Assembly (NCBI GenBank): GCA_030145275.1
Contig: JAQYVV010000013.1
Span: 1-64,000 of the forward strand
DNA length: 64,000 nucleotides
Direction: 5' to 3'
Origin: Desulfurivibrionaceae bacterium
Lineage (GTDB): Bacteria; Desulfobacterota; Desulfobulbia; Desulfobulbales; VMSU01
Shown: positions 19,284 through 25,840 of the stretch, one piece after another
Position numbering within the stretch: position 1 is the stretch's first letter
How the letters are laid out: the number at the start of each line of letters is the position of its first letter
The notes under the pieces: generated by a model
Told to the model about the DNA's origin: nothing
The model's input: the letters and a program-made list of their open reading frames with translations, nothing else
Databases searched by the model: none
Program-made: the position numbers and the translations under genes

Positions 19284-19547
19284 ATGCCATCCATAAAGGA
19301 TCTACCATGTTGGGAAATCATGAATTGCGGAAGCAGTAGGAGAAATTGTCCTGCCAGGAAAGATACAAAACAGGCCTGCTGGGAAATTGTCAAAGAGCTT
19401 TCTGACCATCGAACAGAATTTGATATCTGCCCTGATTGTATTGTGTATATGGTTAAAAATACAAACCTTTTCATGTCGACCCGTGAGATTAACCAGGCCA
19501 GAGAGAAGGTGCATGCCTCAAGTACCATAGAGGCGCAGATAGCGTAG
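19284..19547 (+). CDS. Small cysteine-rich protein (CWE-type Cys motif)
   Basis: An 87-residue protein with GGAGAAAG as ribosome site. The cysteines are patterned CWEIMNC, then NCPAR, ACWEI, and CPDC, for seven Cys in about 45 residues. This spacing is that of a small metal or redox-binding module seen alone or fused to signalling domains in sulfate reducers. The same module forms the C-terminal half of the HTH protein at 25454. The function is unknown. A cluster- or zinc-binding role is an inference from the Cys count. Confidence 0.7.
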   Translation: MPSIKDLPCWEIMNCGSSRRNCPARKDTKQACWEIVKELSDHRTEFDICPDCIVYMVKNTNLFMSTREINQAREKVHASSTIEAQIA

Positions 19548-19612: not shown

Positions 19613-19765
19613 ACATGTTTATTTCAAAATACTTTTAAGCATTTCGTGTTTTTTATGGCAGAAATTCAGCGCTAAGGCACTAAACTACTTAAAAAGTGTA
19701 GCAATCCAACATGCGCTACGGAAGGGCCTTTATGGTTAAGAGAAGGCAATAATTCAGGAGGGTTT

Positions 19766-20605
19766 ATGTCACGTTATTTTTTTATGGTTCTGCTCTTGGT
19801 GGGATTTGTTGTAGTTGCTCCCACTCCAGGCGGGGCTGCGGTTGAAAAAAATGTTGTAAATACGCTTTCGGTTCCAGGCGTTCCGGTTGACACTTCTCTT
19901 TCAGGGGACGGCAGCCTGTTTTTTGTCCTAACGGGAGAGGGGAATGTCTACATATACCAAAAAAATGGGGTATTGAAGGATGTTCTTAACGTTGACGGTT
20001 CTCCCGATATGGTCACTTCATCTCCTGATGGCAATCTTCTCTATCTAACAGACAAGGAGAGTGGTGCGGTTCAAATTGTATCCGTTGATTTTGTCCAGCA
20101 AATAGTTGTCGAAGGCAATGCTTTTAAGGGGGCAGCCGAGGCGCCGGTGGTTATTTCCGTTTTTAGTGATTTTCAATGACCTCACTGCGCAAAGGTTATG
20201 CCTTTACTTGAGCAGTTGCTCAAGCAGTATCCCCAAGAAGTTAAAGTGGTTTTTAAAAATTTCCCCCTGCGTAGTCATAAGCTTGCCAAGCCAGCGGCTG
20301 TAGCGGCCTGGGCTGCCGGGCAACAGGGGAAGTTCTGGGAGATGCACGATCTTGTTTTTGCAAACTACAATAAGCTGTCGAAGGCGAAGTTTCTGGAATT
20401 TGCAGGGCAGATTGGCTTGAATGTTGAGGAATTTAACAAGGATTTGCTCAACCCTGATGCTCTTGCCCTTATTCAGGCGGATCTGAGAAATGGTTTTGAG
20501 GCGGGGGTGCGGGGTACGCCCGCCATCTTTGTTAATGGACGACGTTTGAAAAATAGGAGTCTGCCCGGTTTTAAACAGCTGATCGATTCTGAGTTGGGGA
20601 AATAG
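19766..20605 (+). CDS. DsbA-like thioredoxin-fold selenoprotein with in-frame UGA (Sec138)
   Basis: Read through a TGA at 20177-20179, this is one 279-residue exported protein. It has a signal peptide (residues about 1-24), then a short beta-propeller-like domain (PVDTSLSGDGSLFFVL and PDMVTSSPDGNLLYLTD). The DsbA/DsbG-type thioredoxin domain starts at about 127. The UGA falls exactly on the first Cys of the active-site CxxC: FSDFQ-U-PHC, where family members have FSDFQCPHC or CPYC. The cis-proline motif GTPAIFVNG is intact. Frame and codon use continue cleanly on both sides, which argues against a random nonsense mutation. The ribosome site AGGAGGG precedes only the first ATG. No independent start serves the 3' part. 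The product is probably a periplasmic thiol oxidoreductase or isomerase. Selenocysteine decoding is an inference. Confidence 0.82.
20177..20224 (+). promoter_or_regulatory. Candidate bacterial SECIS element
   Basis: Two hairpins follow the UGA. The stronger is CTTGAGCA-GT-TGCTCAAG at 20207-20224, an 8-bp perfect stem with a G at the loop, about 36 bases after the UGA. A nearer one pairs TGACCT (20177-20182, including the UGA) with AGGTTA (20193-20198). Bacterial SECIS elements are stem-loops just downstream of the UGA with a G/U-containing apical loop that binds SelB. The spacing of the first is at the far edge of the usual range, so which hairpin acts is uncertain. Confidence 0.5.
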
Positions 20606-25453: not shown

Positions 25454-25840
25454 CTACTCACCGTTACTTGTAAATGATAGAAAGGCCGCACACTCTCTGC
25501 ATACTTCCATTTTTTGGTGCCAGTCTTTTTTTGCTGCGCACTCACAAATGGTTCCATTTATAAACCAGCATAATTTCCCCGCTTGAAACTCCCAGGCCGG
25601 GCATTGTTTCTTACGGCTAGTGGGACAGTTCTTTACGGTCCAGCAGGGTTTGAGAGATGCGTTTTGGTCAGCAATGCGAGACAGTAAAAATAATACTTGC
25701 CTCTCCGCATGGGCTGGAATCCTTCTCCATCCCTGTTCATAACTGTGAAGTGTTTTAATTGAAACACCGAGAAGTTCTGCTAACGCCTTCTGAGTTTTCC
25801 CAAGCTTTTTTCTATACTTTACAAAAACTTCTTTATCCAA
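25454..25840 (-). CDS. XRE-type HTH regulator with C-terminal Cys-rich module
   Basis: A 128-residue protein. Residues 1-60 are a helix-turn-helix of the XRE/RelB-like type (LGKTQKALAELLGVSIKTLHSYEQGWRRIP). Residues 66-120 are a Cys-rich module: PCWTVKNC, QCPAW, LCWF, CEC, CREC, eight or more cysteines. The module is the same type as in the small protein at 19284. A redox or metal-responsive repressor is a natural inference. The signal and targets are unknown. Confidence 0.75.
   Translation of the reverse strand: MDKEVFVKYRKKLGKTQKALAELLGVSIKTLHSYEQGWRRIPAHAERQVLFLLSRIADQNASLKPCWTVKNCPTSRKKQCPAWEFQAGKLCWFINGTICECAAKKDWHQKMEVCRECAAFLSFTSNGE

Follow-up and report, generated by a model that had tools for sequence, protein, structure and literature searches.

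A predicted DsbA-like selenoprotein with a propeller-like N-terminal domain in a Desulfurivibrionaceae bacterium

DsbA-like and DsbG-like selenoproteins with a UxxC active site have already been catalogued (PMC1794560, PMC9312934, PMC13188914), with the first counts for the DsbA-like family given in PMC1794560. The first-pass annotation of the locus described here, which referred it to the thioredoxin-fold selenoproteins as a known kind, agrees with these catalogues. DsbA-like selenoproteins of form 1 (PF01323, UxxC, NIP15863.1) share with it the DsbA fold, selenocysteine (Sec) as the first residue of UxxC, a SECIS element and occurrence in Deltaproteobacteria (PMC9312934, PMC13188914). The descriptions of form 1 give a DSBA domain only, and a propeller-like N-domain, an operon and a SECIS class are absent from them; the comparison is with these published descriptions of the form. 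Since large selenoproteomes have been predicted for the Desulfobulbia (PMC12013277), members of the present family may already be counted there.

Other relatives are known by family model or by structure. The best NCBIfam match (residues 114-275) is NF041057, the DsbG-like / Rcas_1661 thioredoxin-like (seleno)lipoproteins, which share the Thioredoxin_4 domain and an optional Sec. Membership was rejected: the score, 84.9 bits, falls short of the 190-bit cut-off, and the family does not share the N-terminal part. For the C-terminal domain the closest solved folds and sequences are BdbD (Bacillus) and ScsC (Proteus), both of which have Cys instead of Sec and N-terminal parts that differ from that of the protein studied. 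An eight-bladed propeller built of four two-bladed fragments (6r5x) is similar to the N-domain in size and fold (TM 0.67 by target length, E 0.008), although this is a weak match to a model of pLDDT 70, with about 21% identity, and 6r5x is a stand-alone fragment without a redox domain.

The first-pass annotation also stated that the fusion of an N-terminal propeller to a Sec-DsbA domain is not known to have been described. The fusion is absent from the published accounts of DsbA-like selenoproteins compared here, but the N-domain is two-bladed and a prior description is possible. In these published surveys there is no mention of a tandem-hairpin SECIS, of a propeller-like N-domain or of a DsbA-like family in which Sec and Cys are often exchanged. 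What appears new or little described is the two-bladed N-domain, a second hairpin ahead of the SECIS loop, and a history of at least 14 Sec/Cys switches.

The gene and its in-frame UGA

The window, i.e., the whole 64,000-nucleotide stretch that was analyzed, comes from an assembly of 3.09 Mb that is 84% complete. The features of the locus are the following.

19756-19762, + strand: AGGAGGG, Shine-Dalgarno-like, 5' of the ATG (sequence reading)
19766-20605, + strand: predicted selenoprotein gene, 279 amino acids plus stop TAG, UGA as Sec138 (frame open on both sides of the TGA)
19766-19840, + strand: probable signal peptide, residues 1-25 (hydrophobic N-terminus, translation read by eye)
19862-20083, + strand: N-domain of eight beta strands (residues 33-106), propeller-like, about two blades (AlphaFold2 and Foldseek)
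20120-20587, + strand: DsbA / Thioredoxin_4 domain, residues 119-274 (Pfam PF13462, PF01323)
20177-20179, + strand: UGA codon, putative Sec138, first position of UPHC (homologue codon counts)
20191-20205, + strand: first hairpin after the UGA, +12 to +26 (predicted fold; stability of +4 to +27 in Sec genes)
20207-20224, + strand: SECIS hairpin, +28 to +45, with a 7-bp stem and loop AGUU at 20214-20217 (pairing, compensatory changes, fit to the bSECIS model)

From the ATG at 19766 to the TAG ending at 20605 the only in-frame interruption is the TGA at 20177-20179, so that direct reading bears out the single broken and resuming frame first noted there. The active-site motif is FSDFQ-U-PHC, in which Sec takes the place of the first Cys of CPHC; apart from one with TCA, the distinct full-length homologues have TGA or Cys at this codon, in agreement with the original placement of the TGA at the leading Cys of a CxxC of DsbA type. 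That both halves belong to one protein is confirmed by the Pfam matches, Thioredoxin_4 over residues 119-274 (E 3.5e-26) and DSBA over residues 130-270 (E 5e-20), both of which span the TGA. Homologues can be aligned over residues 1 to 279, and the alignment to Cys homologues is continuous across the UGA.

Of the 128 full-architecture genes that were aligned, all from the phylum Desulfobacterota, 126 are distinct. At codon 138 the distinct genes have TGA in 73 cases, TGC or TGT in 52 and TCA in one, and the TGA-bearing members are drawn from many genera and classes. No other in-frame TGA was seen within the homologous region of the 126 (TGAs listed farther out lie past the gene ends, outside the homologous stretch). 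The second Cys of the motif is present in all 90 class homologues checked, and residue 138, C141 and P252 are invariant across 31 relatives. Within the class, a homologue at E<=1e-30 occurs in 240 of the 258 genomes. An even sampling of the phylum gave matches at E<=1e-25 in 86 of 395 genomes, and several of these matches, from other classes, are full-length. The same genome carries a second full-length paralogue with an in-frame TGA (contig C45, 44% identical) as well as a distant Cys protein.

With TGA at this position in 73 of the distinct full-length homologues and a Cys codon in 52, a chance TGA is excluded. The same counts dispose of a sequencing error at this codon, and also of the prospect that homologues would all have a stop or an unrelated residue here. 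It is thus very improbable that the TGA is a true stop, by error or recent decay, in a pseudogene. The interrupted frame does lie in a draft genome in which selB was not found, but error or decay would not fix a stop at one codon in many genera and classes, nor keep a hairpin downstream of it, and substitutions after the TGA fall mostly at third codon positions. Least probable of all is a pair of proteins, an N-domain ending at the UGA and a second product starting at ATG 20198. An ATG-initiated frame of 135 amino acids (20198-20605) would allow this, yet only 8 of the 128 aligned genes have Met at that position, and in 52 homologues the two halves form one continuous, Cys-bearing frame. The second protein would also lack a signal peptide, the first redox residue and some of the strands and helices that make up the DsbA fold.

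From these sequences we infer Sec insertion at residue 138 and export of the protein. The predicted product is, with high confidence, an exported and probably periplasmic thiol-disulfide oxidoreductase of DsbA fold in which selenocysteine is the attacking residue. Annotation that treats UGA as a stop would cut the gene into two fragments, although the family is nearly universal in the class.

Tandem hairpins and the selenocysteine machinery

In the bacterial SECIS model the loop is 3-9 nt with a G in its first two positions, and the stem is 4-16 bp, 16-37 nt from the UGA, with an MFE of <= -7.5 (PMC13188914). The hairpin at 20207-20224, with a 4-nt loop AGUU (G second), 7 bp, a distance of 34 nt past the UGA and -8.9 kcal/mol, lies within all four constraints. 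A hairpin with a loop G after the TGA had been noted at the outset; it is present at 20207-20224, where the loop G is conserved, but there are two hairpins here and not one.

The pairing is characteristic of the Sec genes, whose consensus at +28 to +45 is YUCGAGC-AGGU-GCUCGAR. In the 7-bp stem 94% of cells are paired in 72 Sec genes vs 52% in 52 Cys genes, and slid-register controls in Sec genes give 19-54%. Compensatory pair types occur at +30/+43 (U-A, C-G), +31/+42 (G-C, C-G, A-U) and +33/+40 (G-C, U-A, A-U). The loop is AGGU in 61 Sec genes and AGUU in 11. A six-pair stem with an NG[G/U]N loop is found in 69 of 72 TGA genes vs 4 of 53 others; in the Sec genes 99.1% of the cells of this stem are paired, compared with a maximum of 93.8% over 2000 column shuffles, a result that is supportive only because the shuffle ignores relatedness. 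Shuffles of synonymous codons, which keep the protein, show that +28 to +45 is unusually stable in Sec genes (mean z -3.35) vs Cys genes (-0.43), with z near 0 in control regions upstream and downstream.

The region at +4 to +27 is also unusually stable in Sec genes (z -2.01, 90% below -1; Cys genes -0.67), and the element therefore consists of two hairpins in tandem, of which the first varies in register. A first hairpin of fixed register was rejected, its position differing among subgroups, and only its stability could for this reason be tested. Together with the SECIS loop, the first hairpin (in the window, 20180-20206 ahead of the loop) is possibly a distinct, tandem-hairpin class of SECIS. 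Over the window Rfam matched a tRNA and nothing else. The loci L229-L241 encode Sec-containing DsbA-domain proteins without the N-domain, most of which have a SECIS loop nearer the UGA, e.g., GGUCCGACC, and mostly no AGGU loop at +35. These domain-only relatives were left out of the SECIS set because of their different geometry.

Three of the genes that the first-pass annotation suggested looking for, selA, selC and selD, are all in the genome: a canonical tRNA-Sec with UCA anticodon, SelA (621 bits) and SelD (341 bits, with its own in-frame TGA). The selenoprotein reading is thus supported by aligned Cys homologues, by a model-fitting SECIS under selection and by this machinery. Decoding of the UGA by a suppressor tRNA, with insertion of cysteine or some other amino acid, would suit the Cys aligned there in relatives, and bioinformatics is blind to the atom inserted; with a canonical tRNA-Sec, SelA and SelD present and a hairpin of the SelB-type SECIS kind, it is nevertheless very unlikely.

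SelB itself was not found in the 84%-complete assembly with the family model or with SelB of the same family or class, the searches matching only other GTPases (IF2, TypA), and no selB lies beside selA. SelB passes the cut-off in 215 of 258 class genomes. Of eight sister drafts that gave no strong match, four have a SelB truncated where a contig begins, at its first base. Being common in the class and cut at contig starts in four sister drafts, selB is likely absent here through an assembly gap. The gene is repeatedly missing or cut at a contig start (sister drafts G155, G156, G211 and G226 and the present genome), and the sequence beside it may break assemblies of the class.

In the proposed mechanism a ribosome would arrive at the UGA, the SECIS hairpin behind the shorter one would recruit SelB with Sec-tRNA(Sec), and after Sec insertion translation would continue to 20605. 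The exported selenolate would then swap disulfides with client proteins, Cys141 resolving the mixed selenenylsulfide.

Domain structure and possible redox role

The thioredoxin-fold domain of the original annotation is borne out by Pfam and by the AlphaFold2 fold. The full model (31 sequences) has a mean pLDDT of 89.7, with 82-94 in the N-domain block, and its fold matches in the PDB are led by BdbD 3eu3 (TM 0.82 by target length), followed by other DsbA-like proteins; in sequence, the PDB entries that match best are thioredoxin-like and ScsC/DsbA proteins. The PF01323 match passes its cut-off, and a thioredoxin fold with helical insertion, C/UxxC and a cis-Pro loop, the marks of a DsbA-like protein, are all present. 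Both the modelled fold and the active site of the C-domain point to an enzyme of thiol-disulfide exchange acting outside the cytoplasm.

Modelled alone, the N-domain has a pLDDT of 70 and its best Foldseek matches are beta-propellers, including 6r5x. The beta-propeller-like domain first described is thus real, propeller-like and family-wide, but with eight strands it makes about two blades and no whole propeller; a closed propeller domain of four or more blades per chain was rejected. The N-domain is probably an assembly or docking module. Since two blades cannot close a ring in a single chain, self-assembly into a hub is a reasonable conjecture, and the enzyme would then be an oligomer like those of the DsbC/ScsC kind. 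A fuller scheme is offered tentatively and is rather doubtful: the two-bladed N-domain would close the ring by oligomerization (e.g., four chains, eight blades) as a hub for Sec-DsbA domains, forming a selenium-dependent disulfide isomerase, and the first hairpin of the tandem SECIS would shorten the path from the UGA to the SelB loop.

As to redox direction, isomerase or reductase is slightly preferred over oxidase. Candidate electron partners are two CcdA/DsbD-type membrane proteins over cut-off in the genome, and another candidate redox partner is a VKOR-like membrane protein that falls below the Pfam cut-off and has CSHC in its C-terminal part (L244, C62:261182-261514). The latter could feed the selenoprotein in a rival reading, in which the same enzyme works chiefly as a net oxidant in the manner of DsbA/BdbD; the chances of this reading fall somewhat short of even. 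BdbD, the closest fold, is an oxidase, and the VKOR-like protein is encoded in the genome. Against this, Sec favors reducing or exchange chemistry, the CcdA/DsbD-type proteins would supply reductant, and a two-bladed N-domain would fit an isomerase that works as an oligomer, as ScsC and DsbC do.

Exchange of selenium and sulfur within the family

According to PMC13188914, change from Sec to Cys is rare and for the most part confined to FdhA and SelD; it has also been found in FrhD and HesB-like proteins (PMC1794560). A tree of the 126 proteins divides into group A, with 50 members including the window gene, and group B, whose 76 members include the C45 copy. The Sec, Cys and Ser states require 25 changes overall, and for Sec alone the well-supported branches force at least 14 switches, on what is a quick tree of a short protein. 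The tree by itself gives no direction of change. The SECIS hairpin is intact in the Cys-coding genes L160, L165, L168 and L198, of which L160 and L168 fall in clades that hold Sec genes, and partial hairpins are retained by the Cys genes L209, L211, L157, L158 and L170. This series from intact to partial hairpins suggests stages of decay after a Sec-to-Cys change, and such remnants point to loss of Sec in at least some lineages. Judged from these sequences, the family has exchanged selenium for sulfur, and probably back again, many times. In L226, tandem copies at about 3546 and 4501 have TGA in the first and TCA (Ser), with a degraded hairpin, in the second.

For a single thiol enzyme, the family offers a dense natural record of how Sec and Cys are exchanged. 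With at least 14 switches and Cys genes at varied stages of SECIS loss, it lends itself to testing the timing and causes of selenium loss, as well as the roles of the N-domain and the tandem-hairpin SECIS.

Gene neighborhoods differ between the groups. In group B the order is an Fe-S oxidoreductase, the selenoprotein-family gene, a PhoH-like gene and a YbeY-PdxJ fusion (names from sequence reading, not profiles), and this order is class-wide (L128 and 60 other loci). Conserved neighbors were not found in group A, the window gene included; the latter has hisI, hisG and an engB-like GTPase upstream and a VTT/DedA gene downstream. The window also encodes, at 19284-19547 and 25454-25840, two small Cys-rich proteins of the two-CW domain type, one over cut-off with an HTH part and the other a weak match.
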